A DNA stretch of 64,000 bases from Bacillus sp. DTU_2020_1000418_1_SI_GHA_SEK_038. GTDB taxonomy: Bacteria; Bacillota; Bacilli; Bacillales; Cytobacillaceae. The stretch is from positions 4,216,001 through 4,280,000 of the forward strand of contig NZ_CP135435.1 in assembly GCF_032341175.1 (NCBI RefSeq). Direction: 5' to 3'. Position numbers and translations under genes: made by a program. Shown here one piece after another: positions 694 through 52,668 of this stretch. The notes under the pieces were generated by a model. That model worked only from the letters and a program-made list of their open reading frames with translations, was not told the origin of the DNA and did no database searches. Numbering within the stretch: position 1 is the stretch's first letter; every line of letters begins with the position of its first letter.

Positions 694-834
694 AATAGGC
701 TTTTTTAATGAATTTTGTTGCCGATCAGACCGCCTTATGCATACCTGCTCTCTACGTTATTCGTCCCGAAGAAAACACGTTCGCATGCATGCATAAGGCT
801 GGTTATCAATAATAATCGCAAATATATCCTAAAA
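694..834 (-). repeat. R1 structured repeat, copy 1 (upstream of rpmE)
   Basis: Member of a five-copy family in this window. Core inverted repeat CTTATGCAT (734-742) / ATGCATAAG (789-797) surrounds a conserved loop that reads on the minus strand GAACGTGTTTTCTTCGGGA then CGAATAACGTAGAGAGCAGG. Flanks AATGAATTTTGTTG and the right-hand ATAATCGC segment recur in the other long copies. The element reads toward rpmE. Confidence 0.85.
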
Positions 835-862
835 ATAAAATTCCAGGAATGCACACGCTCTA

Positions 863-2131
863 CTAGTGAGAACGCTTCGTCTTCATTTCTTCTGCCAGGT
901 TTGCAAAAAAGTCTTCATTTGACTTCGTTTGTCTTAGCTTACGAAGGAACTTCTCGGCAAAGTCTGGTGAATCTGACATGGATTTTCGAATCGCCCATAG
1001 CATGTCAAGCTGATCCTTCTGGATGAGAAGCTCTTCTTTACGCGTTCCGGAGCGGCGGATATCAATCGCTGGGAAGATTCTTCTTTCCGCAAGTGAACGG
1101 TCAAGATGAAGCTCCATATTTCCTGTCCCTTTAAATTCCTCATAGATAACATCGTCCATTCTGGAGCCTGTATCGACAAGGGCGGTTGCTAAAATGGTTA
1201 AGCTGCCGCCTTCTTCAATATTACGCGCTGCACCGAAGAAACGTTTTGGACGGTGGAAGGCTGCCGGGTCAATCCCCCCTGACAGAGTTCTGCCGCTCGG
1301 CGGAATAACAAGGTTATAGGCCCTTGCCAATCTCGTAATACTATCCATCAAGATTACAACATCGCGCTTATGCTCGACTAGGCGCATCGCACGTTCAAGG
1401 ACAAGCTCCGCCACCTTGATATGATTTTCAGGAACCTCATCAAAGGTTGAGCTCACAACATCTCCCGCAACAGAGCGTTCAATATCGGTTACCTCTTCCG
1501 GGCGCTCATCAATTAAGAGGACGATAAGCTCCACTTCAGGATGGTTCGTTGTAATGCTATTGGCAATTTCTTTTAAAAGCATCGTTTTACCTGCTTTAGG
1601 CGGAGCGACAATTAAACCGCGCTGTCCAAATCCAACGGGTGCCAGCACGTCCATAATTCTCGTAGAAAGATGCCTTTGCGTTGTTTCCAGTTTCATGTGA
1701 CTGTCTGGATATAACGGCGTTAAGGCAGGGAAGTGCACGCGCTCCTTCGCGGTTTCCGGGTCGTCCCCATTAACAAGTTCTACTTGAAGCAAGCCAAAAT
1801 AACGTTCATTCTCTTTCGGAGGACGAACCTTACCGGACACTTTATCTCCATTCCTTAAGTCAAAACGGCGGATTTGCGAAGCCGAAATATAAATATCCTC
1901 TGAGCTTGGAGAATAATTGATCGGTCTTAAAAATCCAAAGCCCTCTGATTGGATAATTTCCAGGACACCTTCCATAAAGAAGTATCCTTCCTTCTCTGCT
2001 CTCGCCTTTAAAATCGCAAAAATTAATTCTTTCTTTGTTAATTTGCTGTAATAAGAAACTTTATATTCGCGGGCAAGTTCATAAAGCTCTTTTAACTTCA
2101 TATTTTCTAAACTGGATATATTTAATCCCAT
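863..2131 (-). CDS. rho: Transcription termination factor Rho
   Basis: Hexameric RNA-dependent ATPase/helicase that terminates transcription. 422 residues. An N-terminal helical region is followed by a cold-shock-like RNA-binding domain (about 50-125, [16 protein letters not shown]), then the ATPase domain with Walker A APPKAGKT near 176-183, the Walker B segment [16 protein letters not shown], and the Q/R-loop region [12 protein letters not shown]. The length is normal for Bacillus Rho, without a long insert domain. It lies between glpX and rpmE as in B. subtilis. The ribosome site (GTGTGGTGTC) is weak. Confidence 0.97.
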
Positions 2132-2541
2132 AATGACACCACACTTTTATTTTTTCAAACTCTTCCCCTAAAAAATTGAAATCAGTCAAACTAAAAAACA
2201 ATAAAATAAAACGGGAAAAATATGATTGGGGTAAAACGAAAACTACTATTATATATAATTAACTTGAGGATAAATCAAAAAAGGAGCCCATTTTAATCCT
2301 ACAACTTTGAAAGGTTATTTTTTGAGGTTAGCTTTATTGGAAAAAAACTTAAAAGCACTCCCCATAGGGGCCTGTATTAACTATATTTTATTTACAAATA
2401 GGAAACAAGTTAATTTTGGCAGGAAATAAGAGGATACGGTCTGACAACTTCATAGCCAGACCTTTTTATTTCTTTATCCTCTTCATTTTTTACTTGGAAA
2501 TGTTACTTCCCAAATGGAATGAACTAGCATTCTGAAGATAT
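2132..2541. other. Gene-free stretch upstream of rho
   Basis: Very AT-rich sequence that must carry the rho promoter. No credible ORF is present. It contains a plus-strand terminator-like hairpin at 2438-2470 and, further right, the R2 hairpin. I could not assign a convincing promoter. Confidence 0.5.
2438..2470 (+). terminator. Orphan plus-strand terminator-like hairpin
   Basis: GGTCTG (2438-2443) pairs with CAGACC (2457-2462) and is followed by TTTTT on the plus strand. Both flanking genes (rho, glpX) are on the minus strand, so this hairpin has no obvious plus-strand gene to end. Confidence 0.45.
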
Positions 2542-2631
2542 TATCGCAGATTAACGGGCTGTAAGACCCCCACTTCAAGTAGCTGAGTAAAACAAAAATT
2601 TCTAAGCGGGGAATCAACAGCCCGTAAAGGC
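2542..2631 (-). repeat. R2 hairpin element, copy A (3' of glpX)
   Basis: ACGGGCTGT near 2553 pairs with ACAGCCCGT near 2616, with an inner CCCC/GGGG pairing. The left end TATCGCAGATTAACGG and right end CCGTAAAGGC recur in inverted form at 23749-23832 (copy B), so this is a dispersed element rather than a unique terminator. Confidence 0.7.
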
Positions 2632-2636
2632 TCACT

Positions 2637-3599
2637 TTATCCAATGACTAGGTTTGGTTTTTTTGTTAGACTATGACGTCCTTCAATGAAACGGACTGTT
2701 CCGGATTTTGCACGCATGACAACCGTATGAGTTGACCCGTAGGTTCCTTTAAATTGTACTCCGCGAAGCAGCTCTCCATCTGTTACACCCGTTGCAGCAA
2801 AGATGGCATCATCGCCTTTTACTAAATCCTCCATAAGAAGAATTTTGTTTACATCAAGGCCCATTTTTTTGCAGCGCTCGATCTCAGCATCGTTTTGAGG
2901 AACAAGCTTTCCTTGAATTTCTCCGCCTAGGCATTTAAGTGCTACAGCGGCTAAAACGCCCTCCGGTGCACCGCCAAGACCGAAAAGAATATCGACTCCG
3001 GTATGATCAAATGCCGTGTTGATGGCACCAGCTACATCGCCGTCATTTATCAATTTAATTCTAGCTCCCGCTTCACGGAGCTGAGCCACGATGTGACTAT
3101 GACGATCACGATTTAGAACAGTTGCTACGACATCTTCAATATCTTTATTTTTCGCTTTTGCAACAGCTTTTAAGTTATCGATGACTGAAGCATTTATATC
3201 AATTTTGCCTACAGCTTCAGGGCCCACCGCGATTTTGTCCATATACATATCAGGGGCGTGAAGCAAGTTGCCATGATCTGCTACAGCTAGAACAGCAAGT
3301 GCATTCCAGCCTCCAGATGCAACAATATTCGTGCCTTCAAGCGGGTCTACCGCCACATCAACGCGCGGTCCGTAGCCAGTACCAAGCTTTTCCCCGATGT
3401 AAAGCATTGGCGCCTCATCCATTTCTCCTTCACCAATGACTACGGTTCCCTTCATAGGTACGGTATCAAACACGTTTCTCATGGCTGTTGTGGCTGCATC
3501 ATCTGCTTCGTCCTTTTTCCCGCGTCCCATCCAGCGGGCTGATGCTAAGGCTGCCCCTTCTGTCACACGGACAAGCTCCATTGTTAAACTGCGTTCCAT
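2637..3599 (-). CDS. glpX: Class II fructose-1,6-bisphosphatase
   Basis: Hydrolyses fructose-1,6-bisphosphate to fructose-6-phosphate in gluconeogenesis. 320 residues, starting [15 protein letters not shown]. Hallmarks are [11 protein letters not shown], the metal/substrate motif DPLEGTNI and [12 protein letters not shown]. An upstream extension to 3638 is open, but the GAGGGGGAA ribosome site precedes the ATG at 3599, which also gives the family N-terminus. It sits between murA and rho, the position of B. subtilis ywjI/glpX. An R3 hairpin lies just 5' and an R2 hairpin just 3'. Confidence 0.95.
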
Positions 3600-3649
3600 C
3601 CTTATTTCCCCCTCAAATCTCTGCTGTTCATCATGCATACATCCAAAAA

Positions 3650-3734
3650 CCTATGGGGCAAGCCCCTTCCGCTTTTCTATGTTCAAAAAGTGGTCCAAAG
3701 TACGGATCAAAAATTCGCCCGCATACCCCATAGG
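3650..3734. repeat. R3 hairpin repeat, copy A
   Basis: CCTATGGGG (3650-3658) and CCCCATAGG (3726-3734) form an inverted repeat. The interior (GTGGTCCAAAGTACGGATC then GCCCGCAT) is clearly related to 14288-14360 (copy B). Confidence 0.7.
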
Positions 3735-3762
3735 CAAATTTATCAAATTACTTAGTTTTTAC

Positions 3763-5049
3763 CTATGCATTTTTCATTTGTTCCTGTTCTTCTTTAGTTA
3801 AATTTTCTCGCCAGATGGTTGCTCCGAGGCCATTTAATTTTTCAACTAGGTGGCTGTAGCCGCGGTCAATATGCTCAACTCCGGTTACTTCCGTTATTCC
3901 GTCCGCCATTAGCCCAGCAATCACAAGTGCGGCACCGGCTCGTAAATCACTGGCCTTCACTTTGGCACCTTGAAGCTTGACAGGACCATGAATAATTGCC
4001 GAACGGCCTTCTACCTTAATATTCGCATTCATTCTTCTTAATTCATCAATATGTTTAAAACGGGCACTATAAATGGTGTCCGTCACCATACTCGTCCCAT
4101 CTGCACTCGTTAATAAAGTGGTAAAAGGCTGCTGGAGATCTGTTGGGAAACCTGGATAGACAAGTGTCTTAATATCAACGGCTTTTCTTTTTCCAACCGG
4201 ATGAATATAGACATGGTCATCCCCAGTTTCAATCACAGCACCCATTTCTCTTAATTTCGCAATCAATGACTCGAGATGCTGAGGGATCACATTATCAATG
4301 GTCATTCCTTCACCAACAGCTGCACCAAGTAACATATACGTACCGGCTTCAATCCGATCCGGGATAATGGTGTGCTGGCAGCCATGCAGCTGGTCTACTC
4401 CATCAATCCGAATGACATCTGTTCCGGCACCTTTAATTTTTGCTCCCATATTTGTCAGCAAAGTCGCTACATCAATAATCTCCGGCTCTTTTGCGGCATT
4501 TTCAATGATCGTTCTTCCTTTAGCTCTAACAGCTGCAAGCATTATGTTGATAGTCGCCCCAACACTGACAACATCCAGATAAATTCGAGCCCCTCGCAGT
4601 TCATCCGCACGCAGGTAAATGGCTCCCTGCTCATTCGTTACGGTTGCGCCAAGAGCCTCGAAGCCTTTAATATGCTGGTCAATCGGTCTCGGTCCAAGAT
4701 GGCATCCGCCTGGCAGACCAATCACCGCTTTTTTGAATCGGCCTAGCATGGCCCCCATTAAATAATAAGAGGCACGCAGTTTCTTTACTTTTCCATTCGG
4801 CAAAGGCATGGAAATCATCGATGAAGGGTCAACTTTCATATCTCCTTCAGCAAAGCTGACGGTCCCTCCAAGTTCTTCAAGCAGTCCTTTTAAAATTTGC
4901 ACATCCGAAATATCTGGCAGCCCTTCAATTGTGACAGGCGAATCAGCTAGAATCGTAGCCGGAATCAATGCCACTGCACTATTTTTTGCTCCGCTAATTC
5001 GAACAGTTCCTTTTAAAGGGTAACCGCCTGCAATCATAAGCTTTTCCAT
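3763..5049 (-). CDS. murA: UDP-N-acetylglucosamine 1-carboxyvinyltransferase (MurA2/MurZ type)
   Basis: First committed step of peptidoglycan synthesis: transfers enolpyruvate from PEP to UDP-GlcNAc. 428 residues; starts [24 protein letters not shown]. The catalytic cysteine lies in [15 protein letters not shown], the version typical of the second Gram-positive paralogue (MurAB/MurZ). The start at 5049 has a GAAGGGAGC ribosome site; a longer open frame to 5118 lacks one. Gene order tal-murA-glpX-rho matches B. subtilis murAB. No sign of damage. Confidence 0.93.
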
Positions 5050-5371
5050 TTTTAGCTCCCTTCTACGCCGTAAAGTATATGAAAAACGCTGCGTGGGTAA
5101 TGAAATGTTTGCATCCATCTTGAACTATGTAGGAATTATTTAGCTTGTCCTTTGCTTCACTAATAGAACTGACAACAGGTCGCTTCCTGTTTATTCCGAC
5201 ATGATCCTTATCTTCTAGTTTACACGAAAATGCCATTCCCATGTGTGGTTATGAAAATAAAGTTCCGATTCGTTCAATGTCTGCTATTGCTTGCTACTAA
5301 CACTTTACCCCAAATTAGCCATTGGTAAAACCCAAACTTATACAAAAAATGGATGCTTTTCCATTTAACTT
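5050..5371. other. Gene-free stretch between murA and tal
   Basis: About 320 nt upstream of murA on the minus strand; presumably carries the murA promoter. I see no repeat family member and no convincing hairpin with a T run here. Confidence 0.4.
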
Positions 5372-6013
5372 TTAGCGAGCATTCCAGTCAGCAAGAAATG
5401 CTTCAATTCCTTTATCCGTTAGCGGATGTTTAAATAATTGCATAATCACTTTATAAGGGATCGTTGAAATATGAGCACCTCTTAAAGCGGCATCTGTTAC
5501 GTGCTGAGGGTGACGAATGGATGCTGCAATAATTTCCGTTTTAATGTCATGGATAGCAAATATTTCAGCAATCGTAGAAATTAAATCCAGCCCGTTATGG
5601 CCAATATCGTCTAATCGGCCAAGGAAAGGAGAAACATACGTTGCCCCTGCTCTTGCTGCCAGCAATGCTTGGTTAGCACTGAAAATTAACGTCACATTTG
5701 TTTTGATTCCTTCTTTTGAAAAAGTATGAACGGCCTTTAATCCGTCAGGTGTCATTGGGACTTTAACCGTAATATTAGGCGCAATGGCCGCTAATTCGCG
5801 TCCTTCTTTAATCATGCCTTCTGCGTCTAAAGCGATAACCTCTGCACTTACTGAACCTGGAACAAGCTCTGTAATTTCTTTAAGTCGATCATGGAAAGAA
5901 ACATTCTTCTCCTTCGCCACCAAAGAAGGGTTAGTAGTAACCCCATCTAAAATACCTAAAGCATGTGCTTCTTTAATCTCATCCATATTCGCTGTATCGA
6001 TAAAAAATTTCAT
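5372..6013 (-). CDS. tal: Transaldolase-like protein (fructose-6-phosphate aldolase family)
   Basis: Class I aldolase-fold enzyme of the small transaldolase/FSA family, 213 residues, acting on C6/C7 sugar phosphates in the cytoplasm. Starts [16 protein letters not shown]; contains [13 protein letters not shown] and the Schiff-base lysine in [15 protein letters not shown]. It has a good GAGGAGG ribosome site. It lies between fba and murA, where B. subtilis has ywjH/tal. Whether it acts as a true transaldolase or as an F6P aldolase cannot be decided from sequence alone. Confidence 0.92.
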
Positions 6014-6106
6014 AATAAAATCCTCCTCAAAAAAAATAAATTGTACTTTTATGGAAGCAGGCTTAAACCTTCCTGCCCGAAAATTTCCTGTTAGCCAAGA
6101 AATGAA

Positions 6107-6140
6107 TCAAAACCGCCTCTATCTTAAAGGCGGTTTCCTA
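6107..6140 (-). terminator. Probable terminator after fba
   Basis: AAACCGCCT (6110-6118) / AGGCGGTTT (6128-6136) inverted repeat directly 3' of fba. On the minus strand the tail is TTTTGATTC, a short T run. Confidence 0.6.
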
Positions 6141-6157
6141 AAAAAATCTCACTGCTA

Positions 6158-7015
6158 TTAAGCCTTTCCAGAAGAACCAAACTCACGCATTTTTCCAATA
6201 ACGGTTTCCTTAATGGCCTCTCTAGCAGGCCCTAAGTATTTGCGCGGATCATACATTTCTGGGTTGGCTGCTAACACCTCACGAACTCGCTTGGCAGAAG
6301 CAATCTGATTCTCTGTATTCACATTAATTTTTGCTGTTCCTAACGAAACCGCTCTTTGAATATCCTTCGTTGGAATTCCCGTGCCGCCGTGCAGAACAAG
6401 CGGTACGCCTGTCAGTTGGCCGATTTCTTCCATCTCAGCAAAACCAAGATTTGGCTCACCTTTGTAAGGACCATGAACGGATCCTAATGCAGGAGCTAGA
6501 CAGTCAATTTTCGTTCTTTTTACAAGCTCTTCACATTCTTTTGCATCCGCGTAAATCACGCCATCCGCAATAACATCATCCTCTTGTCCGCCGACCGTTC
6601 CTAATTCAGCTTCAACTGAAACACCGCGGGCATGTGCATATTCCACAACCTTTGAAGTAGTGGCTACATTTTCTTCAAAAGGATCATGAGAAGCATCAAT
6701 CATGACTGAAGTAAAGCCAGCATCGATCGCCTCTTTACATTTATCAAAGCTTGAACCATGGTCTAAATGAATGGCTACAGGTACTGAAATTTTATAATCT
6801 TCAAGTAAGCCTTCCACCATTTTTACAACGGTTTTGAATCCGCCCATATATCGTGCGGCCCCTTCGGACACACCAAGAATAACAGGGGATTTTTCTTCCT
6901 CTGCTGCTTGAAGAATCGCTTGAGTAAACTCAAGATTATTTAAGTTAAATTGACCTACTGCATAACCCTCCGCTTTTCCCTTGTTCAGCATGTCAGTCAT
7001 TGATACTAAAGGCAT
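6158..7015 (-). CDS. fba: Class II fructose-1,6-bisphosphate aldolase
   Basis: Zinc-dependent glycolytic/gluconeogenic aldolase, 285 residues. Starts [24 protein letters not shown]. Metal-ligand motifs are HLDHGSS and, toward the C-terminus, [20 protein letters not shown] is the family signature. An AAGGAGG ribosome site fixes the start at 7015 rather than the upstream open codons. Neighbours spo0F and tal reproduce the B. subtilis order. Confidence 0.96.
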
Positions 7016-7201
7016 ATTTCTTCCTCCTTCATCATCATCGCTTCTAATTTTCACAGGATAAGTCTTCCCTTGTTACTTGTGTTTATGTATTCTCCTGTTT
7101 AAACGGAACCGATCCAATAGAATTCATTTGTATCATACCAAAACGGAAAAAGAAATGCCATTACTCCGAAAGAATTTTCATGAGAAAAACGGGGCGTGAC
7201 A

Positions 7202-7272
7202 AGAAAAGCCTGTGAGGCGATAGCGTGCAGAAATTTTACAGGTGAATTCTGCCGTTGATCGCCCACAGGCTA
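7202..7272 (-). terminator. Long hairpin terminator after spo0F
   Basis: AGCCTGTG/GGCGAT sequences around 7208-7222 pair with GATCGCC/ACAGGCT at 7257-7271. On the minus strand the stem ends CACAGGCTTTTCTTG, consistent with intrinsic termination of spo0F. Confidence 0.65.
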
Positions 7273-7281
7273 GTTGTTAAA

Positions 7282-8427: not shown

Positions 8428-8522
8428 AGGGTTTTAAGAATTAATCTTAAAAAAACGTGCCTTCGCCGTTTACTGACCTCTTTATTCATTCATGGCTGCT
8501 GTTGTCACTAACTTTTAGGATT

Positions 8523-8768
8523 GATGGTAGCCATGAACTATTCATAGTTAGTGTTTTTATACCAACTCCTGTAAAACACGTTCCATGAACCTTTCATAGT
8601 CACCATTTTTACACCTACTCCTGCAAAACACGTTCCATGAACCTTTCATAGTGATCGTTTTTACACATGCCCCTGCAAAACGCGTTCCATGAACCCTCTA
8701 TAGTTACCGTTTTCACACCTACACCTGCAAAACACGTTCCATGAACTCTCCATAGTTGCCGTTTTTCA
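8523..8768. repeat. R4 tandem array, locus 1 (52-bp period)
   Basis: CCATGAAC begins at 8531, 8583, 8635, 8687 and 8739, exactly 52 bp apart each time. The unit includes TTCATAGT, a GTTTTTACACC segment and CCTGCAAAACACGTT. The same 52-bp period recurs at 19838, 51895 and 60275. A short ORF on the minus strand is only repeat read-through. Confidence 0.9.
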
Positions 8769-8779
8769 AAATCACAAAA

Positions 8780-8845
8780 AAGGAAGACCCCACAAAGCAC
8801 CAGCCCCCACCGTCGGGGACTGATACTCAGCAGTCTTCCTTTCCT
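8780..8845 (-). terminator. Terminator after pyrG
   Basis: GGAAGAC near 8783 pairs with GTCTTCC near 8832, enclosing an inner CCCCCAC/GTCGGGG-type hairpin. On the minus strand the outer stem is followed by TTTTTT. It directly follows the pyrG stop. Confidence 0.7.
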
Positions 8846-8846
8846 C

Positions 8847-11351: not shown

Positions 11352-11510
11352 CGCTTTTTTAAAAGGCTTTGTTAATGAATTTTGTTGGCAATTAGACCGC
11401 CTTATGCATACCTGCTCTCGCATTTTTTTGTAACGAATAAAACCCGTTCGGCATGCACACATAAGGCTGGTAATCAACAAAAAATCGCTAATATAGCCTT
11501 TTAAAAAGCG
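11352..11510 (-). repeat. R1 structured repeat, copy 2 (upstream of rpoE)
   Basis: The best-preserved ends of the family: CGCTTTTTTAAAAGGCT (11352-11368) is nearly the perfect inverse of AGCCTTTTAAAAAGCG (11495-11510). Inside are AATGAATTTTGTTG, CTTATG...CATAAG stems and, on the minus strand, GAACGGGTTTTATTCG. The usual GGGACGAATAAC half of the loop is replaced here by TTACAAAAAAATGCG. It reads toward rpoE. Confidence 0.85.
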
Positions 11511-17701: not shown

Positions 17702-17761
17702 TTTTCTCCCCCTGTTCGTATTAAAGCAGGTTCTGTAATACCTTTTTTATTGAAAAGTTAA

Positions 17762-17857
17762 TTATTTGGACAAGTATTCAGGGAAACCCCTTTACCTGTC
17801 CAGATAAGTGGGTTATTTGGACAAGTATTCAAGAAGCCGCCAAAACCTGTCTAGAAA
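17762..17857. repeat. R7 repeat pair, locus 1
   Basis: TTATTTGGACAAGTATTCA begins at 17762 and again at 17813 (51-bp period), each followed by an ACCTGTC segment. Related units occur at 34742-34832. Confidence 0.75.
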
Positions 17858-19783: not shown

Positions 19784-19837
19784 GTCCCTATCCCCCATTA
19801 AATTTAGCGTAATTGATATGATTGTTGAATTTCTTTG

Positions 19838-19985
19838 AAAACTCGCACTATAAAGCGGTTATGATTAGCGTTTTGGGTGAGGCCCTTTCGAAACACGCAC
19901 TATGAAGCAGTCATGGTTAGCCTTTTTGGTGGGTCCCTCTCAAAACACGCACTATGAACCCCTCATGATTAGAGTTTTAAGTGAG
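19838..19985. repeat. R4 tandem array, locus 2 (52-bp period)
   Basis: CGCACTATGAA-type units begin at 19844, 19896 and 19948, exactly 52 bp apart, each with a TCATG-TTAG-GTTTT segment. It lies between the two acyl-CoA dehydrogenase genes. Confidence 0.85.
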
Positions 19986-19992
19986 TTCGCTA

Positions 19993-22057: not shown

Positions 22058-22186
22058 TGGCTGATGATTATTAACCTTGGTTTGGCTGATAAATTCATTA
22101 TTTAGCTGATAAACATGCAAATTTGGCTGACAAACCTAATGATTTGGCTGATAAATACAGTGAATTGGCTGATAAATTCAGCTTTA
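22058..22186. repeat. R5 array, locus 1 (about 21-bp period)
   Basis: Six copies of (T/A)GGCTGATAAA-like units begin near 22059, 22084, 22104, 22125, 22146 and 22167. The reverse complement, TTTATCAGCCAA, forms the array at 31240-31375. Confidence 0.85.
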
Positions 22187-27439: not shown

Positions 27440-27469
27440 TATCCTTTGATTCCTGTTTTTCTTGGATTC

Positions 27470-27690
27470 GTGGAAATTTTGGAAACAAACATGTTTTCAT
27501 TCCCGATTTTCTCGAAATCGCTAAAATTTGGGAAACATAACTTGTTTTCTTTCCCGTTTTTCCAGTAATCATTAAAATTTAGGAAACATATCTTGTTTTC
27601 TTTCCCGTTTTTCCAGTAATCACTAAAATTTAGGAAACATATCTTGTTTTCTTTCCCGTTTTTCCGAAAATCGCTAAAATTTAGGAAACA
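27470..27690. repeat. R6 tandem array (51-bp period)
   Basis: GGAAACA begins at 27481, 27531, 27582, 27633 and 27684 (spacing 50 then 51). The unit contains TTGTTTTCTTTCCCGTTTTTCC and AATC(A/G)CTAAAATTT. Because 51 is a multiple of three, the minus strand stays open and would encode a 17-residue repeat (NGKENKICFLNFSDYWK); no good ribosome site or conserved start is seen. Confidence 0.85.
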
Positions 27691-29950: not shown

Positions 29951-30045
29951 AAGGCTTGGTGATAAGTCTTATGCATACCTGCTCTCTACGTTATTCGTCC
30001 CGAATAAAACCCGTTTGCATGCATGCATAAGACTTAATATAGCCT
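29951..30045 (-). repeat. R1 structured repeat, copy 3 (upstream of ywiB), short form
   Basis: AAGTCTTATGCAT and ATGCATAAGACTT form a perfect 13-bp stem around the conserved minus-strand loop AAACGGGTTTTATTCGGGA..CGAATAACGTAGAGAGCAGG. It lacks the outer AATGAATTTTGTTG arm. Ends AAGGCT / AGCCT match copy 2. Reads toward ywiB-argS. Confidence 0.85.
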
Positions 30046-31095: not shown

Positions 31096-31230
31096 AGACT
31101 TTTGTTAATGAATTTTGTTGGCGATCAAACCGCCTTATGCATACCTGCTCTCTACGTTATTCGTCCCGAATAAAACCCGTTCGCATGCATGCATAAGCCT
31201 GGTATCAACAAATAATCGCTAAAATACTTT
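31096..31230 (-). repeat. R1 structured repeat, copy 4 (upstream of speB)
   Basis: A full-length copy: AATGAATTTTGTTGGCGATC, stem CTTATGCAT / ATGCATAAG, loop GAACGGGTTTTATTCGGGA..CGAATAACGTAGAGAGCAGG on the minus strand, then the CAACAAATAATCGCT arm. Reads toward speB. Confidence 0.87.
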
Positions 31231-31239: not shown

Positions 31240-31375
31240 ACAGTTTATCAGCTAAATTTACTCATTTATCAGCCAGATTACCTGTTTTGTCAGCCAATTT
31301 TTCAGTTTATCAGCCAATTTGACGGTTTTGTCAGCCAATTTTTCGATTTGTCAGCCAATCGGCATTTTGCTGCCA
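31240..31375. repeat. R5 array, locus 2 (20-21 bp period)
   Basis: TCAGC(C/T) begins at 31248, 31269, 31290, 31310, 31331 and 31351. The unit TTT(A/G)TCAGCCAATTTTTCAG is the reverse complement of the locus 1 unit. Confidence 0.87.
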
Positions 31376-40070: not shown

Positions 40071-40265
40071 AAAAGCGGAAGCGCCTCGCCCACCCCCGAC
40101 AAGCACAAGTCGAGCCTTCCGGAAAGGTGTTCTTTACCTTTTTGGGAGGATTGGCTTGTGACCTCGAGGGGGTAGGCGCTCCTCCTAAAAGCTAGCGCTT
40201 CTACTCGTGCGATGATTATGCTGTCGAAGCGTTCCTTATGGAGCTAGACAATTCTCAAACTCGAA
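40071..40265 (+). repeat. R8 structured repeat, copy b
   Basis: Begins AAAAGCGGAAGCGCC, ends GGAGCTAGACAATTCTC-AAACTCGA. The interior GACAAGCACAAGTCGAGCC .. GGTGTTCTTTACC .. GGATTGGCTTGTGACCTCGAG is closely related to copy d and can fold on itself. It directly follows the rsfA stop. Confidence 0.8.
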
Positions 40266-40341
40266 AAATGTTTAATTTATTCTTTAAATATAAAACTTCC
40301 AATTTTGGGAGCAGGAGAAGGAATTACATCCTCGATTTTTT

Positions 40342-44270: not shown

Positions 44271-44374
44271 CGAAAAGCGGAAGCGCCTTCGGAACAATCA
44301 AAGGGCAATTGTTCGTGCGATGATTATGCTGCCGAAGCGTTCCTTGTGGAGCTAGACAGTTCTCTAACTCGAGT
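44271..44374 (+). repeat. R8 structured repeat, copy c
   Basis: A short form: CGAAAAGCGGAAGCGCC at the left, GGAGCTAGACAGTTCTC-AACTCGA at the right, sharing TTCGTGCGATGATTATGCTG with copy b. Directly follows the gerQ stop. Confidence 0.78.
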
Positions 44375-44400
44375 AAAGTTATTCTTTCTTATCTACAGCC

Positions 44401-45616: not shown

Positions 45617-46636
45617 TTATCCAAGCAAACGCTGATAAATCGCTTTAGCCTGTGTTAAATCATTTGTGCCATGAATGAGCGCCCGGCCATCATTAAAAAT
45701 AACGAGACGCTGCTCATCCATTTCAACAGAAAGTAAATAAGGATTTCCCTTCACCTGGTAGCCGAGCGTTCTTAACTGACGAGATAAATCACCTAACTGA
45801 ATTTGCTGCTGTCTTGGCGGACGAATTTGCACGGTATCCCTTCCACAAAGAACTGTTGATTTCATCATGTTTTCGCTGTCAAGGTACGGATAGGTTCTCA
45901 TTTCTCCACACGACAAACAGCCTGTATCCTTTGCCTTCGAAACCTTCATACTAGTATATTGATTTCTCCATAAATCAAAGCTGACAAAGGAGGTTCTAAC
46001 AGCATCCCAGTCTTCCACAAGAATTTTCAAAGCTTCTGCGGCTTGGTGTGAAATGGCCATCTGTACAGCTGGTCCAATGATTCCGCCCGTATCACAGGTC
46101 ATCCCTTGAACAGGAATCGTTTTAAGCAGGCAATTCAAACAAGGAGTCTTTCCAGGTATAATGGTCAGGCTCATGCCAAAGCTCCCAACGCATCCCCCAT
46201 AGATCCACGGGATATGATGCTTTTGTGAGATATCATTGATCATCATTCTTGTTTCGAAATTATCCGTTGCATCGATGATTAAATCTACACCTTGAATTAG
46301 GTCCTCCATCATTTCTGGATTCGCATCCGCAATCACAGCTTGGATGTTAACGTCTGAATTAATGGCTTGCAGCCGCTTCGCAGCCGCTGCCGCCTTCGGA
46401 AGTTTCTCTTCCACATCCTGCTCCGTATAAAGCTGCTGGCGCTGCAGATTGCTTGCCTCCACATAATCGCGGTCGATGATCGTTAATTTTCCAATGCCCG
46501 CTCTGGTTAAAATTTCAGCATTGCCTGAACCTAAAGCACCCGCTCCAATCATCAATACATGCTTGGAACGGATTTTCTCCTGCCCCTCTTTCCCTATGAA
46601 CGGAAACAGGGTCTGCCGGGAGTATCGATCATCCAT
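45617..46636 (-). CDS. moeB: Molybdopterin-synthase adenylyltransferase MoeB (ThiF/MoeB family)
   Basis: Adenylates the MoaD C-terminal glycine so that sulfur can be added. 339 residues: Rossmann motif HVLMIGAGALGSGNAEIL, DRDYVEASNLQRQQLY, catalytic DATDNFETRMMIND, and zinc Cys pairs CLNCLL and CLSCGE. The C-terminal ~90 residues go beyond the short E. coli MoeB. The gene follows moaD by 6 nt, which favours MoeB over ThiF, although Bacillus proteins of this family can serve thiamine synthesis too. Confidence 0.87.
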   Translation of the reverse strand: MDDRYSRQTLFPFIGKEGQEKIRSKHVLMIGAGALGSGNAEILTRAGIGKLTIIDRDYVEASNLQRQQLYTEQDVEEKLPKAAAAAKRLQAINSDVNIQAVIADANPEMMEDLIQGVDLIIDATDNFETRMMINDISQKHHIPWIYGGCVGSFGMSLTIIPGKTPCLNCLLKTIPVQGMTCDTGGIIGPAVQMAISHQAAEALKILVEDWDAVRTSFVSFDLWRNQYTSMKVSKAKDTGCLSCGEMRTYPYLDSENMMKSTVLCGRDTVQIRPPRQQQIQLGDLSRQLRTLGYQVKGNPYLLSVEMDEQRLVIFNDGRALIHGTNDLTQAKAIYQRLLG

Positions 46637-46642
46637 AGTACA

Positions 46643-46876
46643 TCAGCCTCCACTGACCGGAGGAATAAACGCAACTGTATCCCCAGCTTGAGTAACCTCT
46701 TCATTAGATGCAAACTCTTCATTAATAGCCGTCATGACATTTTCCAGATTAACGGACTCATATTTTTCAGAAATAAGCTGTTTCAGCTCGGCAACGGTTT
46801 TTCCGCTCACATCCAGCTGGACAGATTCCTCTCCAACGGCGTCACGCAAATGAGCAAAAAATAAAACTTTAATCAT
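46643..46876 (-). CDS. moaD: Molybdopterin synthase sulfur carrier subunit MoaD
   Basis: 77-residue ubiquitin-fold sulfur carrier. Ends PPVSGG with the conserved Gly-Gly that is adenylated and thiocarboxylated. Starts MIKVLFFAHLRDAVG. It overlaps the moaE stop by 8 nt and is followed by moeB, so the three are translationally linked. Confidence 0.93.
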   Translation of the reverse strand: MIKVLFFAHLRDAVGEESVQLDVSGKTVAELKQLISEKYESVNLENVMTAINEEFASNEEVTQAGDTVAFIPPVSGG

Positions 46877-47336
46877 TTAGGTCACTCTCCTCCGGTTTTC
46901 CTTTTGGATAGGCAACCGTTTCAAGCTGGTTGCCAATCCATTCCTCTCCATCCTCCCAATGCTCCTTTTTCCAAATCGGAACAATCTCCTTAATTCGTTC
47001 AATTGCATATCGATTTGCTTCATAAGCATCAGCTCGATGAGGGGTTGAAACCGCAATAACAACGGCAATATCAGTAATATCAAGCTTCCCGACACGGTGA
47101 GTAATCGCGACTTCTGCCCCGCTCCAGCGCTCCTTTATTTCATGCCCAATCTGTTCAAGCTTCTTTACTGCCATTGCTTCATAGGCCTCATAAATTAAGT
47201 ACAATGTCTTTTTTCCATGAGTTAATTCGCGCACTGTACCGATAAAGGTTGTAATGGCCCCCGCCTCACGCTGGACCACTTTATCGATCACTTCTTGAAT
47301 GACAATCGGCTCCTTAGAAATCTCGTAAAAATTCAA
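46869..47336 (-). CDS. moaE: Molybdopterin synthase catalytic subunit MoaE
   Basis: Inserts sulfur from MoaD into precursor Z. 155 residues; signatures AGAITTFIGTVRELTHGK, LIYEAYEAMAVKKL, ITHRVGKLDITDIAVVIAVSTPHR and the catalytic Lys region WKKEHWEDGEEWIG. It is first in moaE-moaD-moeB. moaA, moaB/C and moeA are not within this window. Confidence 0.94.
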   Translation of the reverse strand: MNFYEISKEPIVIQEVIDKVVQREAGAITTFIGTVRELTHGKKTLYLIYEAYEAMAVKKLEQIGHEIKERWSGAEVAITHRVGKLDITDIAVVIAVSTPHRADAYEANRYAIERIKEIVPIWKKEHWEDGEEWIGNQLETVAYPKGKPEESDLND

Positions 47337-47438
47337 GTAATCCCCTCCCGATTTAATGTAGGTAGTTTATTTGTTTTCAGTAAAAGTTTATTACTATCAA
47401 CATATCAAATTTCTGGACAGATTCCAAAGGGGATGCCT

Positions 47439-48044
47439 TTATTTAAGCTTAAAATCAGACTCCATTTTTACTGCCCTTTCAAAATCTTCTTGATGATTCA
47501 TGTTGAAAAAGTGCTGTTCCTGATAATGGTATTGAAGCTTCTGAAGACAAGCTTCTGTAACGAATTTCGTCTTAGTATGTTTAAAAAACTGCCTGATTCG
47601 CAGTTCCTGATTTTGCAAGGATTGATGTACTTCTCCAATAGTATCCTTCCGGTAGGCAGCAAACAATGGATGAAGCTGGCCTGAAATATGAGGGACAGCG
47701 ACTTGATAATCATCTAAAAGGGTCAGCAAAATCCCACCTAATTGAGATGAAATAAACGGCATGTCACACGCCACGATAAGATTTTTTTCTGTGCTGGAGG
47801 CACTCAAGCCAGCATGGATTCCAGCCAGCGGCCCCATGTCCTTCCATATGTCCTTAACCATTGGGAGCCTTAAAAATTGATAGTCCTCAAAAGTATTAGT
47901 GACAATGACAATGTTTGAGACTATCTTATTTAGCTCCATCACAATTCGTTCTATCACTGTTTTTCCACCGATGGGCAACAGCGCCTTATTCGTCCCCATT
48001 CTGCTCGACTTGCCGCCAGCCATGATAATCCCTGTTGATTGCAT
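47439..48044 (-). CDS. mobA: Molybdenum cofactor guanylyltransferase MobA
   Basis: Adds GMP to molybdopterin, implying enzymes that use the guanine-dinucleotide form (DMSO-reductase family, such as formate dehydrogenase or nitrate reductase). 201 residues. Nucleotidyltransferase signature GIIMAGGKSSRMGTNKALLP and metal Asp in VACDMPF. AGGTGAGG ribosome site. It precedes moaE on the same strand, 100 nt away. Confidence 0.93.
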   Translation of the reverse strand: MQSTGIIMAGGKSSRMGTNKALLPIGGKTVIERIVMELNKIVSNIVIVTNTFEDYQFLRLPMVKDIWKDMGPLAGIHAGLSASSTEKNLIVACDMPFISSQLGGILLTLLDDYQVAVPHISGQLHPLFAAYRKDTIGEVHQSLQNQELRIRQFFKHTKTKFVTEACLQKLQYHYQEQHFFNMNHQEDFERAVKMESDFKLK

Positions 48045-48299
48045 TTCCTCACCTGCCTATCTTTGAAGGAACCAATAGTCCCTAGCTTCCTATCATTCCA
48101 TTTTCTCAACATCTTCCCTTAAGTATACCCTTTGCTTTGCCATCAAGCATGTATTTCTTAATCACTCATATAGGCAAACAATTTGAAGGATTTGTGTCTT
48201 CACAAAACGTTCAAATTAAAGTCTCGTGTTTATTAACCGAATCTTAACAATCCAAATTTATACTGAGGGCGAAATCATAAGAAAGGAAGGAAGATATAA

Positions 48300-49238
48300 A
48301 TGAAAAAACTTTTTCTATCCTCTGTTCTTGGAATCATTTCATTATTAGTGCTGGGCTTTACATTGACTTATTTCATTGTAAAAGATCCAGATAAACATAT
48401 GGCAGCAGATTCACAGCCAACAAATGCAAATCAAGAGCAAACAGGGGAAACTGTTAAACATCCGTATGCCCCGCCAAGCCTTGACGATGTACCCGTGGGA
48501 GAAGAGGGAGAATTAATTAAGCTCGGCCACAAATATGCAACTGAAACAAGCACCGCATTGGACGGATATGTTGGAAACACCTTAAGCTGTGCAAGCTGCC
48601 ATGCCAACGGAGGATATGAAGGATCCCTTGATCTAGTAGGAATTTCAAAAACTTACCCGCAGTATAATCCCAGAGCTGGGAAAGAGGTCACAATTGAGGA
48701 TCGAATCAACGGCTGTTTCAAAAGAAGCATGAATGGAAAACCACTGCCAAAGGATTCACAAGAAATGAAAGCGATGGTTGCATTCTACGATTATATTTCG
48801 CAAAATGTTCCTGATGGCACAACAGAAAGACCGTGGGCTAAGTTAAAAAGGTCGGAAGCGGATATTGAAAATGTCGATATTGAAGAAGGCCGAGAGCTTT
48901 ACAATAAAGCCTGCATAACCTGCCATGGTGAAAATGGCGGTCAAGGTACACCTCTAGCTCTTTGGGGTGACGATTCATATAATATCGGAGCTGGGATGGC
49001 TAGACTAAGAACAGCCGCAGGCTTTATTAAAGAATATATGCCCAAGGCGGAAGTTGGGGGTTACTCACAAGGTTCTCTTACCGATGAGGAAGCTATGAAT
49101 ATAGCAGCCTATATTAATGCCCAAATGCGTCCTGACTTCCCTGACAAAATTTATGATTGGCCAAACGGAGATGCCCCTGACGATGCTGCATACGAAACCA
49201 TTGCCGGGAAAAAGAAGGATAACACCGCGAAAAAGTAG
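48300..49238 (+). CDS. tsdA: TsdA-like dihaem cytochrome c (probable thiosulfate dehydrogenase)
   Basis: 312 residues. An N-terminal membrane anchor/signal helix (about 5-27, FLSSVLGIISLLVLGF) carries the protein outside the membrane. Two haem c sites: CASCH at 97-101 and CITCH at 205-209. IEDRINGCFKRSMNGKPLP (Cys near 139) is typical of TsdA, where the Cys ligates the active-site haem. Likely oxidises two thiosulfates to tetrathionate, or the reverse; inferred. AAGGAAGGA ribosome site, own terminator. The anchor lacks a lipobox. Confidence 0.87.
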   Translation: MKKLFLSSVLGIISLLVLGFTLTYFIVKDPDKHMAADSQPTNANQEQTGETVKHPYAPPSLDDVPVGEEGELIKLGHKYATETSTALDGYVGNTLSCASCHANGGYEGSLDLVGISKTYPQYNPRAGKEVTIEDRINGCFKRSMNGKPLPKDSQEMKAMVAFYDYISQNVPDGTTERPWAKLKRSEADIENVDIEEGRELYNKACITCHGENGGQGTPLALWGDDSYNIGAGMARLRTAAGFIKEYMPKAEVGGYSQGSLTDEEAMNIAAYINAQMRPDFPDKIYDWPNGDAPDDAAYETIAGKKKDNTAKK

Positions 49239-49256
49239 GCCTAAAAACTTTTACAG

Positions 49257-49280
49257 AACCCGGTTTTATCCGGGTTTTTG
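49257..49280 (+). terminator. Terminator after tsdA
   Basis: AACCCGG (49257-49263) / CCGGGTT (49270-49276) then TTT, separating tsdA from the response-regulator gene. Confidence 0.85.
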
Positions 49281-49385
49281 ATATTTTTATGAACAATTCT
49301 CGGACTCTTTCAAATGGAGAATGGATTTCTATATAATAAAACGAGAGACCAGATTGAATCATTCGCAAAGGGGTGTGACTTTTTG

Positions 49386-50075
49386 ATGGAGAAGCTTAGG
49401 GGAAAAACGATACTGATTGTTGAAGACGAGGAAAGAATTAGAAGGTTAATAAAACTATCTTTACAAAGAGAAGGCTATGAAATATTAGAAGCAGCTAATG
49501 GCTATGAAGCAAAGGAACAATATTTAAAATATGACCCGTGCTTTATTATTCTAGATATGATGCTTCCCGGCTTAACCGGAAACGAGATTTGCACCTGGCT
49601 GCGTGAAGACTTGAACAGCAATGTGCCTATTATTATTCTTTCAGCCAATCACAGTGAAAGAGACCGGATTGAAGGTTTGAAATTGGGTGCAGACGACTAT
49701 ATGGCTAAACCCTTTAGTTTAGAGGAATTAACGACCCGAATTGAAACGGTTTTAAGAAGAACAGCGAACCGGTGCAGCAAAATCAGCTATCGCGGGCTCA
49801 CACTTAAACCGATCGTTGGCATGGCCAAATTTGTAGATACACCCCTAGACCTAACCCTCTTTGAATATAAATTGCTTTACCTTTTTATGACTCATCCTGA
49901 TCAAGTATTTTCGAGAGAACAAATTATTTCATTAATCTACAATCATGAAGAAAAATTAATTAACGAACGCACGGTTGATGTGCACATTAAAAACCTTCGT
50001 GAGAAAATTGCCCATTACTCAGACTACCCTTTTATCCAAACGGTTCGGGGAATTGGCTATAAATTCACAACATAG
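49386..50075 (+). CDS. OmpR/PhoB-family response regulator (orphan)
   Basis: 229 residues. Receiver domain with acidic EDEE near 12-15, phospho-acceptor Asp in FIILDMMLPGLTG, Ser of IILSANHSE and Lys of YMAKPFS; C-terminal winged helix with LFEYKLLYLFMTHPDQVFSREQII and RTVDVHIKNLREKI..TVRGIGYKF. ATG at 49386 after AAAGGGGTG (long spacing). No histidine kinase gene follows; the next thing downstream is a deletion scar on the opposite strand. Target genes unknown; neighbouring tsdA is a candidate. Confidence 0.9.
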   Translation: MEKLRGKTILIVEDEERIRRLIKLSLQREGYEILEAANGYEAKEQYLKYDPCFIILDMMLPGLTGNEICTWLREDLNSNVPIIILSANHSERDRIEGLKLGADDYMAKPFSLEELTTRIETVLRRTANRCSKISYRGLTLKPIVGMAKFVDTPLDLTLFEYKLLYLFMTHPDQVFSREQIISLIYNHEEKLINERTVDVHIKNLREKIAHYSDYPFIQTVRGIGYKFTT

Positions 50076-50563
50076 AAGGAAAAACATCCCCCAATCAGAA
50101 GGATGCTAGATTTCTTTTCTTTGAAAATAGGTAAATCTTGATAGAAAAAATAAAACAAGCTGCCGATGACAACGATAAACAATGTTTCGAACGATACATT
50201 CAACGCGCCAAAGCTTTCTCCTTGTCCAGGCATCATAAGCAGAAATGGCTGTGCCCACGGATAATAAAGACCGAATTTCTCTGAATTCACGATTAGAATA
50301 TTGGGCAATGTAAAAATCACATTAATCGCTAGTGGTGCTGCAAAGCTTGACCAGGCAGTTGACACAAAAAGCTGTAAAGCAGCAAGTGGCATACAGGCAA
50401 CCCAGCCTCCGATTACACTAATCGCAATGATTTTCCATGGAATGGCTGCTTCATAGCCTTTAAGCTGCCCGATAAGCAAAAGCCCTCCCGTAAAAAGATT
50501 TTGAGTCAGTGCAAGTAACCCCATCACGATGATGAATTTCGCTATATAGACATTGCCCCTTAA
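50057..50563 (-). pseudogene. Remnant of an ABC-2 type permease (lantibiotic-immunity-like)
   Basis: About 165 residues of a membrane protein lacking its N-terminal half: LRGNVYIAKFIIVMGLLALTQ, then several hydrophobic helices and the near-terminal FFYQDLPIFKEK. This resembles the C-terminal part of NisE/SpaE/MutG-type immunity permeases. No start codon with a ribosome site precedes it; instead the reading frame is joined at about 50564 to the remnant of a response regulator in another frame. Its 3' end runs into the convergent regulator gene. Confidence 0.7.
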
Positions 50564-50564
50564 A

Positions 50565-50756
50565 CCGCTGGCCAATCGTAAAGCCATCAAGACCCGGCAG
50601 CAAAACATCTAATATGACGAGGTCATGATCTGAGACCATTTTTTCAGCTCCATCACCCGATTTTAACCATTCAACCTTATATCCCCTTTGCTCTAAATCT
50701 TCTTTTACCCAGCTGCCAATCTCCAAATCATCTTCTATATATAAAATTCTCCTCAT
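50565..50756 (-). pseudogene. Truncated response regulator (N-terminal 64 residues)
   Basis: MRRILYIEDDLEIGSWVKED through VILDVLLPGLDGFTIGQR is a good OmpR-family receiver start including the phospho-acceptor Asp. After about residue 64 the frame turns into unrelated sequence because the DNA switches to permease sequence. Most of the receiver and the whole output domain are lost, so it cannot be functional. It keeps its own start codon at 50756. Confidence 0.8.
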
Positions 50757-50906
50757 TATTCATCACCTAAGCTTATAATAGAGAAAACGAACTGGAAATA
50801 AAAGCCTATAATAATAAAGTTTCAGCTAATAATAATTATTGCTATAATTAAAAATGGATAAAAAATTAATCAAATCGAAACCTGAATTTTGGGAGGAAGG
50901 TATCAC

Positions 50907-51737
50907 ATGACAATGAAAAAAGTTCTAACAATTGCTGGCTCAGACACAAGCGGGGGTGCCGGAATTCAAGCTGACCTTAAAACATTCCAGGAGCTTGGCG
51001 TATATGGAATGACGGCTCTGACTACTATCGTAACGATGGATCCGAAAAATAATTGGAACCATAACGTGTTTCCAATTGCGCTCGACACTCTTGAGACTCA
51101 GCTGGAAACGATTCTTTCAACAGGCATTGATGCAATGAAAACAGGTATGCTTGGTTCAGTCGAGATCGTTGAGCTTGCAGCCAAAACAATTGATGAGAAT
51201 CAATTAGATAAAGTAGTCATTGATCCGGTTTTAGTTTGTAAAGGAGAAGATGAAGTTCTTCACCCTGAAACAGCAGATGCGTTAAGAAACATTCTTGTCC
51301 CTCGTGCAACAGTTGTGACACCTAACCTTTTTGAAGCGTGGCAGCTGGCACAAACAGGACCAATCAAAACAGTGGACGATATGAAGGAAGCCGCTGTGAA
51401 AATCCATGAACTTGGAGCAAAATATGTTGTAATCAAAGGCGGCAGCAAGCTAAACCATCCTACAGCCGTTGATCTTTTCTACGATGGAAAGGAATTCAAG
51501 CTTTTGGAATCTGAGTTGGTCAACACAACCTATACACATGGGGCAGGCTGCACATTCGCATCAGCCATTGCAGCTGAGCTTGCGAAAGGCAAAACGGTTG
51601 TTGAAGCCGTTGAAACAGCAAAAGATTTCATTACTGCTGCTATTAATCATGGCTTTAAATTAAATCAATACGTGGGGCCAACGATGCACGGTGCATACCG
51701 TCTGTTTGGCGCTGGGCGATCAGGAGCAACTGAATAA
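50907..51737 (+). CDS. pdxK: Pyridoxine/pyridoxal kinase of the ThiD fold (PdxK)
   Basis: Phosphorylates B6 vitamers for salvage of pyridoxal 5'-phosphate. 276 residues. Starts MTMKKVLTIAGSDTSGGAGIQAD; has AMKTGMLGSVEIVEL, DPVLVCKGEDEVL and the Cys-containing lid THGAGCTFASAIAAE, as in B. subtilis PdxK (YwdB). The family also contains HMP kinases, but WNHNVFPI and YVGPTMHGA follow PdxK. ATG at 50907 after GGGAGGAAGG. Confidence 0.88.
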   Translation: MTMKKVLTIAGSDTSGGAGIQADLKTFQELGVYGMTALTTIVTMDPKNNWNHNVFPIALDTLETQLETILSTGIDAMKTGMLGSVEIVELAAKTIDENQLDKVVIDPVLVCKGEDEVLHPETADALRNILVPRATVVTPNLFEAWQLAQTGPIKTVDDMKEAAVKIHELGAKYVVIKGGSKLNHPTAVDLFYDGKEFKLLESELVNTTYTHGAGCTFASAIAAELAKGKTVVEAVETAKDFITAAINHGFKLNQYVGPTMHGAYRLFGAGRSGATE

Positions 51738-51894
51738 GTTTTTTTACTGTAATTTTACAGGGCCTTTTTGGCTCTGTTTTTTTGCAAAAATGCTCCATTC
51801 ATTGGTACGTTCACGCTATATCTCATCATATAAGCGTTATTTTCGCATTTATTGTCTATTTTTAGTAATATAAATGGGGAAAATTAAATTACGT

Positions 51895-52085
51895 GGTTCA
51901 TGAGTCTTTCATAGTGAGCGTTTTTATTGAAGACACACAAAATCGCAGCCCATGAACCTTTCATAGTTAGCGTTTTGATTGGGGATACACTAAAACGCAT
52001 TCCATGAACCCTTCATAGTTAGCGTTTTGATTGGGAACTCACTATAACGCGTTCCATGAACTTCATGGTGAGTGGTTTTCAAAAC
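51895..52085. repeat. R4 tandem array, locus 3 (52-bp period)
   Basis: CATGA begins at 51899, 51951, 52003 and 52055, exactly 52 bp apart, with CTTTCATAGTTAGCGTTTTGATTGGG-like units (split here). Lies between pdxK and yojF. Confidence 0.88.
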
Positions 52086-52165
52086 TCAGTAACAAAACAC
52101 TCCCTATTAACACTAAAACCGATGTTGTCAAATAACCATAATATAAATTGGAAAGGAGGCCCATT

Positions 52166-52510
52166 ATGGAATCAGTAATAATCGAGAAGGTGCAAAAGGA
52201 AATAGACCGCTTTGCTAAGAAAGATGTATATATTCATTTGGAAACGACTAACGGGGCCTATGCTTCCCATTTTGATAAGTCTTTTTTCTCTTCGGGGGCC
52301 TATATTCGAAATGCTCTTCTGCAATATGAGCACGGAAAAATAGTAGGAAATGGACCTTATCGGGTTGGGCTCAAAATGAGCTTTGGCTGGGTATATGCTG
52401 AAGGAATCACCCATTTTGAAATCGATGAAAAGGGGCGTCTCCTTTTAGCCGGACATGATAACGAAGGCAGGCTCGCTGTCGCGCTGCAAATTAGCGAGAC
52501 ACCTTTTTAA
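52166..52510 (+). CDS. yojF: DUF1806 family protein YojF
   Basis: 114-residue conserved Bacillales protein found next to the BshB2 gene. Sequence features: LETTNGAYASHF, SGAYIRNALLQYEHGKI and GNGPYRVGLKMSFGWVYAEGITHFE. No membrane segment. ATG at 52166 after GAAAGGAGG. Its function is not known; constant pairing with bshB2 suggests a role in bacillithiol metabolism. Confidence 0.88.
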   Translation: MESVIIEKVQKEIDRFAKKDVYIHLETTNGAYASHFDKSFFSSGAYIRNALLQYEHGKIVGNGPYRVGLKMSFGWVYAEGITHFEIDEKGRLLLAGHDNEGRLAVALQISETPF

Positions 52511-52529
52511 AGTGAGAATATTGACTTTT

Positions 52530-52668
52530 ACTAAGACTAAATTAGTGATTGTATTGATTTAGCTATATGTGTGCATGTGAACGGGTTCTTTTAGGGACGA
52601 ATAACTTAGAGAACATGCGCACATATGGCGGTTCTACATCTACAATATTATTTAACATAGCCTTTACT
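52530..52668 (+). repeat. R1 structured repeat, copy 5 (upstream of bshB2)
   Basis: A diverged copy on the plus strand: stem ATATGTGTGCATGT / ACATGCGCACATAT around the conserved loop GAACGGGTT..GGGACGAATAAC..TAGAGA. Stem bases differ from the other copies on both sides, keeping pairing. Outer arm TTAGTGATTGTATTG / CTACAATATTATTTAAC and end CATAGCCTTT also match. It ends about 20 nt before the bshB2 start. Confidence 0.82.

Follow-up and report, generated by a model that had tools for sequence, protein, structure and literature searches.

Several families of short, folded, mobile-looking repeats are known in bacteria. The bcr1-bcr3 repeats of the Bacillus cereus group are described as short, structured elements resembling miniature inverted-repeat transposable elements (MITEs), often located in untranslated regions or operon gaps (PMC3446304). 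In the account of PMC6542083, bcr mobility is tied to a TTTAT motif and bcr is restricted to B. cereus sensu lato. The pneumococcal BOX, RUP and SPRITE repeats are portrayed as folded, MITE-like and likely affecting co-transcribed genes, with BOX and RUP lying at about 61% on the leading strand and being over-represented between convergent genes (PMC3049150). According to the same source, ERIC and Correia are folded repeats whose read-through changes the transcript (PMC3049150). For B. halodurans, the stem-loop families Bhal-1 and Bhal-2 are listed (PMC2267715). R1, the subject of this study, is a repeat family with five copies (c1 to c5, Table 1) in a stretch of 64,000 nucleotides from Bacillus sp. 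DTU_2020_1000418_1_SI_GHA_SEK_038 (contig NZ_CP135435.1, positions 4,216,001 to 4,280,000), which we call the window. R1 is a non-autonomous transposable element, a MITE. It probably belongs to the IS1595 group and carries a strand-specific folded core, which hosts may keep for an effect of its RNA.

We class R1 as a new family among the folded MITEs, one that has a tie to IS1595 and a loop that is well conserved; the descriptions of bcr, BOX and RUP set it apart from them. ERIC and Correia elements have other hosts, other ends and other sequences than R1. A preliminary description of this DNA had compared R1 with the bcr repeats, a likeness that holds for the general kind only. Unlike bcr1, as described, R1 has 8-bp target site duplications (TSDs) of varied sequence and IS1595-like ends; its named hosts, besides the genome studied here (G000), are Cytobacillus depressus BZ1 (G022), Bacillus sp. 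FJAT-29790 (G007) and Bacillus sp. FJAT-29937 (G027). Compared by description with BOX and RUP, R1 lies, in raw counts, between tandem genes in 54 of 83 copies and between convergent genes in 18 of 83. No description of R1, or of any IS1595 MITE in Bacillaceae, was found in the open-access literature searched.

The comparisons below use 83 distinct R1 copies from nine genomes, left from 91 scan rows after removal of four duplicates and four wrong-strand matches on palindromic copies. This number is a lower bound. From 80 fetched loci 78 were scanned, excluding L117 (the same copy as in L104) and L153 (one more G203 copy), and there are further matches in G022, G027, G029, G066 and G007, and more R1 copies in G203.

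The mobility of R1 is visible in its structure. Full-length copies in the window measure 128-134 bp and have imperfect terminal inverted repeats. Both ends are recognisable in 51 copies, which measure 115-138 bp in 49 cases, 84 bp in one and 142 bp in one. As is expected of a MITE, R1 is short, has no coding capacity, and its terminal inverted repeats, GGCTnTnTTA...TGTTGAT in inverted orientation, pair imperfectly. An AT-rich 8-bp TSD matching at 7 or 8 of 8 positions borders 28 of the 51 testable copies (18 perfectly), and the TSD sequences vary among copies. When left and right flanks were taken from different copies as a control, 1.3% matched as well. The preliminary description had proposed a comparison with orthologous sites, and the c5 site indeed proved to be free of R1 in relatives. 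The gene 3' of c5 is bshB2, as identified by a TIGR04000 match, and the gene 5' of it is presumably yojF. We found bshB2 in 36 of 36 genomes of the genus, and yojF adjoined it on the same strand in all 30 loci fetched. In the gap between the two genes the R1 model matched this genome only; none of the 29 other relatives carries R1 there. The gap spans 178 bp in this genome; among the 29 relatives it measures 23-98 bp in 27, and 161 and 206 bp in two that hold other inserts. This comparison concerns one site, and the gap lengths differ, so that the exact 8-bp target is not readable. The two other inserts (L281 and L285) are of similar size. Furthermore, no insertion common to two genomes was found among the neighbour genes of the 83 copies; four pairs of neighbour genes exceed 45% identity between genomes, and in none of them does R1 sit on the same side and at the same distance. 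The terminal repeats, the 8-bp duplications, the R1-free site in relatives and the autonomous IS1595 elements with similar ends, described next, identify R1 as a MITE and bear out the mobile-element reading of the preliminary description.

R1 was probably moved in trans by an IS1595-type transposase, either in the past or after a transient arrival, as a comparison of ends suggests. This is the best-supported step of the mechanism that we infer below. A BLAST search of 61 genomes with one R1 copy gave, besides longer matches, three to the right end alone (G014, G031 and G043). L056 (G014) and L057 (G031) are larger, degraded elements with similar ends and 8/8 TSDs (TAAAATTA and AAAAAGAA), and contain degraded IS1595-like transposases and passenger genes. 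These end-only matches replaced our first guess, ISL3, made from the AT-rich 8-bp TSD, for which the genome has no PF01610 match. PF12762 alone is a poor detector that missed the truncated IS1595 transposase of G014, and a protein query was therefore used for the family scan. With the L057 transposase as query, relatives were found in 85 of 193 genomes of the family. In 15 of the 29 loci L222-L250, with end pairs ranked by how well the duplications and the ends matched, we recognised autonomous elements that are 1.45-2.2 kb long and have 8/8 TSDs and ends like (G/A)GCTnTnTTA..TGTTGAT; one more locus had a 7/8 TSD and the rest no convincing pair. The transposases of L247 (342 aa) and L236 (363 aa) match NF033547 (IS1595 family) and PF12762/PF12760. 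R1 resembles these insertion sequences in its end pattern and its AT-rich 8-bp duplications, but is without a gene of its own. In the autonomous loci no R1 core was found, the R1 model matching weakly, with at most 26 bits, near the ends. R1 did not prove to be an internal deletion derivative of a known insertion sequence.

One set of IS1595-like ends is common to several MITE types of these bacteria. Such ends, paired at MITE spacing, occur in 18 of 193 genomes; in G064 they enclose R1, and in the other 17 different interiors, mostly of one GC-rich type, as judged from 80 letters each. Among the seven best matches (0-1 mismatch) to a lax end pattern in this genome, four were R1, two a third type (L330 and L333) and one a solitary end (L324). 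The type with mostly GC-rich interior (GGAGCGGAAGGCGCGAAG...) is represented by L252-L268, L320, L335 and L344, and is present in many genomes of the family. The third type has a long hairpin interior and includes L330 (G000, 1011380), L333 (G000, 3986569; flanked on both sides by TTTTTATA) and L031, the third of the matches to the right end alone (G043), a 144-bp element in another genus with TAACAAAA flanking both sides and an interior different from that of R1. In G203, a repeat with the end-like sequence GGCTCTTTTCTCAAACATTGTTGCT is found on many contigs.

The interior of R1 contains two stems, one of 16 pairs that covaries and a second, TTATTCG/CGAATAA, together with tandem G.A/A.G mismatches and an asymmetric loop that is conserved. 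With the loop GAACGGGTTTTATTCGGGACGAATAAC setting the reading direction, type A consists of the left end GGCTATATTAGCGATTATTGTTGATTACCA, the arm GCCTTATGCATGCATGC, the loop, the arm GCAGGTATGCATAAGGC and the right end ...CAACAAAATTCATTAACAAAGCC. For each of c1-c5, the fold is better than that of all 200 dinucleotide shuffles (z -3.5 to -6.2). In 21 copies aligned without structure, 92.3% of the cells were paired, and three of five covariation measures exceeded all 500 shuffles; both-sided changes and further pair types were not beyond shuffles (213 and 270 of 500). In an alignment of 82 distinct copies, fitted to the main stem, 90.0% of the cells were paired (slid partners at most 50.6%), and 19 of 23 pairs had changed on both sides, with 220 such cells against 67 in shuffles. 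None of 500 shuffles reached the observed value on any of the five measures; these shuffles leave kinship in place, and relatedness alone can beat them. The second stem, which is outside this model, is 85.9% paired in the 82 copies, with both-sided changes in five of seven pairs, in few cells.

The exchange of stem sequences with pairing kept, noted in the preliminary description, is thus real. For example, the stem of c5 differs in sequence from that of c1-c4, and the main stem covaries across genera. The stem is rewritten in each subtype and the loop is largely kept, as GTGAACGGGTTTTATTC..GAATAACTTAGTGAAC in G203. Related loop forms are present in G064, G066, G063 and G089, and also in G315, G340 and G445 from other families, the last with TATAC/GTATA as its second stem. 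Of 86 rows, 58 and 57 retain the tandem G.A/A.G beside the stem, and the position pair that follows is C-G in 55 and T-A in 14. A kink-turn was weighed by eye as an explanation of the tandem G.A pairs and rejected. By eye, there is no U-tract after the hairpin on either strand, so that R1 does not look like an intrinsic terminator. The preliminary description would have given up its proposal for chance covariation or for a known Rfam family; the covariation goes beyond chance, and no Rfam family matches R1. Lax Rfam scans of three copies gave matches far below cut-off only, mostly to miRNA families.

The core also outlasts the ends in most of the family. Substitutions relative to the subtype consensus are fewer in the core than in the ends in 49 of 61 copies (Wilcoxon p=1.8e-8), these 61 of the 83 copies having been assigned to four subtypes by eye. 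By type, this holds for 11/14 copies of A, 12/12 of B, 15/16 of C and 11/19 of D. In types A, B and C, and not in D, the ends decay while the core stays conserved. Between TSD-intact copies (7-8 of 8) and the other copies, the divergence of the ends rises from.095 to.209 (A),.158 to.34 (B) and.175 to.276 (C), and that of the core from.048 to.055,.127 to.154 and.054 to.074, respectively, with small TSD-intact groups of 5, 2 and 3 copies. In c3, the inner parts of both terminal repeats are gone and the core is kept.

R1 copies show a bias in orientation relative to genes, which we located by our own codon-based gene calling and not by annotation. In tandem-gene gaps, 41 copies point with both genes and 13 against both (p=1.8e-4). 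An earlier, cruder gene caller gave 42:10, and the counts of the better caller are used here. The remaining copies lie between convergent (18) or divergent (11) genes. The ratio of with to against is 13:1 in this genome, 9:2 in G022, 3:0 in G007, 1:0 in G027, 9:3 in G064, 2:0 in G066, 4:5 in G203, and 0:1 in each of G089 and G063. Where a co-oriented gene follows, it starts within 60 nt in 20 of 52 cases. Further contexts include a G022 copy between panC and panD, and a copy upstream of rpoB in this genome. The preliminary description had R1 always 5' of a gene and co-oriented with it. This is correct for all five copies in the window and does not extend to the whole genome, where the 3' gene is co-oriented in 15 of 20 cases and opposed in five. 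Random orientation, which it had named as a sign against its proposal, does not describe the copies as a whole (41:13), with reservations for G203 and for the direction of replication that are taken up below.

A scenario that would join these observations begins with an IS1595 transposase, supplied in trans, that inserts R1 with an 8-bp AT-rich duplication. The copies would then sit in 5' leaders and in gene gaps of operons, for example c5 before bshB2 and c2 before rpoE, and where such genes are co-transcribed R1 would become part of the message. There, the folded RNA may alter or protect the message, with processing, stability or translation as the likeliest target, so that hosts would retain the core and lose the ends. 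Four observations suggest action as RNA, namely that copies favour the sense strand, that the stem covaries, that the asymmetric loop is conserved and that the core survives; an RNA-level role is a candidate supported by these sequence comparisons. By likeness to ERIC, Correia and BOX elements, message processing or protection seems the plausible form of it. More tentatively, R1 could be a portable RNA device on IS1595-type ends, perhaps a binding site for a protein or RNase, which inserts in the sense direction and is kept as a cis-acting mRNA element after ends and transposase are lost, its core being maintained over several families and its stem rewritten by compensating changes; we regard this fuller version as possible rather than probable.

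Several results weigh against these proposals. R1 has ends like those of autonomous IS1595 elements and TSDs of equal length, as an IS1595 MITE should, but no helper was found in the same genome: at E<=1e-10 the transposase was detected in 0 of the 10 R1 genomes of the family scan and in 85 of the 183 others (Fisher p=0.0027), two of the ten R1 genomes being only 81-88% complete. Because no helper was found in the R1 genomes searched, the mover is deduced from ends and TSDs only. A helper transposase in the same genome is not a required feature of a MITE if the helper was lost, and we infer that the mover has since been lost, or comes and goes. In type D, the contrast between core and ends lacks significance (p=0.13), and divergence is lower at the outermost end positions (.071) than in the core (.125). 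This type holds most of the young copies (14 of 19 have intact TSDs), and well-kept outer ends are as expected of recently mobile copies. Copies with a decayed core are harder to detect, which inflates the contrast between core and ends. Scans that start from the ends weaken this objection and answer it only partly. With the type A right end alone, 7 of 7 matches in this genome and 3 of 4 in G022 were R1, and a laxer end scan gave many ends without R1 core, of which 16 loci were inspected and proved to be MITEs of other types, ends standing alone and, in some cases, additional R1 copies. With respect to orientation, G203 shows no bias. In this genome 17 of 20 copies are co-oriented with replication, taking dnaA at base 1 and assuming a terminus near 2.1 Mb, and over all genomes the GC skew is positive in the orientation of the element for 63 of 83 copies, including 19 of 29 non-tandem ones. 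The sense bias is therefore confounded with the direction of replication, and the two causes are inseparable here.

Part of the orientation data would suit a hairpin acting at the DNA level, if its single-stranded structure aided transposition or were favoured on one strand of the replication fork, and orientation followed replication. The element follows the skew in four of the five tandem cases in which the genes oppose it, and the sense bias is already 19:3 in TSD-intact copies, compared with 22:10 in the rest. On the other hand, among 14 non-tandem copies with 14-20-kb windows, eight follow and six oppose the local strand majority, the autonomous loci lack the R1 core, and in types A-C it is the core and not the ends that is best conserved, which together make a purely DNA-level role improbable. 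The structure itself could also arise without any RNA function, in a plain palindromic MITE whose stem is repaired to a perfect palindrome by strand switching, so that paired arms change without selection, and whose loop derives from recent source copies. Between the same ends, other MITE types carry interiors unrelated to that of R1, and several of these are visibly palindromic; the type D core is no better conserved than its ends, and the lack of insertions found in common between genomes fits such an element. Arm repair cannot explain an asymmetric loop conserved across families, and the outlasting cores of types A-C and the 41:13 sense bias speak against it as well; we consider this explanation rather unlikely, though one to be taken seriously. 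The preliminary description had offered a further one, a dispersed host regulatory leader (a riboswitch or a protein-binding leader) repeated by chance. A folded, covarying R1 and the 20 of 52 downstream genes that begin close by would suit it. However, R1 copies behave like insertions, no gene was found to carry one in two genomes, R1 has no Rfam match, and its TSDs, terminal repeats, patchy spread and absence from relatives leave this leader highly implausible, the TSDs largely refuting it.

R1 is patchily distributed. In this genome, blastn gave 17 R1 matches, the last a marginal one of 27 nt. A covariance model built from 21 copies gave 25 matches at E<=0.1, comprising 20 copies (<=5.2e-6), four wrong-strand matches on palindromic copies and one marginal match, so the total in this genome is 20 copies. 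In the family scan, in which the best <=16 candidates per genome were scored, R1 was present in 10 of 193 genomes, with many copies in some relatives. A scan of 397 genomes of the order, Bacillales to judge from its named relatives, gave six with matches under stricter filters. Two of these, G288 and G316 (L312 and L314), from another family of the order, were ruled out as R1, being perfect palindromes of about 50 nt with similar ends and no conserved loop, which leaves this genome and G315, G340 and G445, the R1 carriers in other families. A blastn search of plasmid and phage collections with R1 found no match. A folded mobile repeat family without an Rfam match has a likely mover, and the alignment of 83 copies from nine genomes, in which both younger and older insertions are represented, forms a natural data set for asking whether mobile hairpins become working parts of messages.

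Table 1. R1 copies and other features, in coordinates of the window.
Feature	Position	Strand	Description
R1 copy c1	698..829	-	type A, 132 bp; between rho and L31 leader, upstream of rpmE (name from the preliminary description)
c1 target duplication, 3' side	690..697	.	TATTTTTA
c1 target duplication, 5' side	830..837	.	TATTTTTA on both flanks
R1 copy c2	11365..11498	-	type A, 134 bp; upstream of rpoE (RNA polymerase delta subunit); TSD TTTTAAAA/TTTTAAAA
R1 copy c3	29953..30044	-	type A core, 92 bp; between speB (agmatinase) and ywiB (name from the preliminary description); no TSD
R1 copy c4	about 31097..31229	-	type A, about 133 bp; upstream of speB; no clean TSD
R1 copy c5	52535..52662	+	type B, 128 bp; between yojF and bshB2; TSD TTTACTAA/TTTACTAT
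L31 ribosomal leader, RF03156	534-565		just downstream of c1, outside R1
Tandem arrays, 51-52-nt units	8479-8790, 17752-17853, 19833-19988, 27441-27690, 51898-52053, 60276-60379		
Arrays, about 20-21-nt units	31244-31346, 22097-22166		TTTATCAGCCA...
Second dispersed repeat	40205-40280, 44313-44388, 53846-53884		AGCTAGACAGTTCTC..., three copies

All five R1 copies first described in the window are present, with slightly corrected ends. For c4, a TSD of 7/8 was obtained only after shifting the ends by eye. The L31 leader is the sole above-cut-off Rfam match in the window. Besides R1, the window contains a second dispersed repeat and two kinds of tandem arrays. The arrays of 51-52-nt units have the unit length in common, and their sequences are mostly unlike. 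Those with units of about 20-21 nt also occur in L003, at about 2740-2900, near another R1 copy of the genome.

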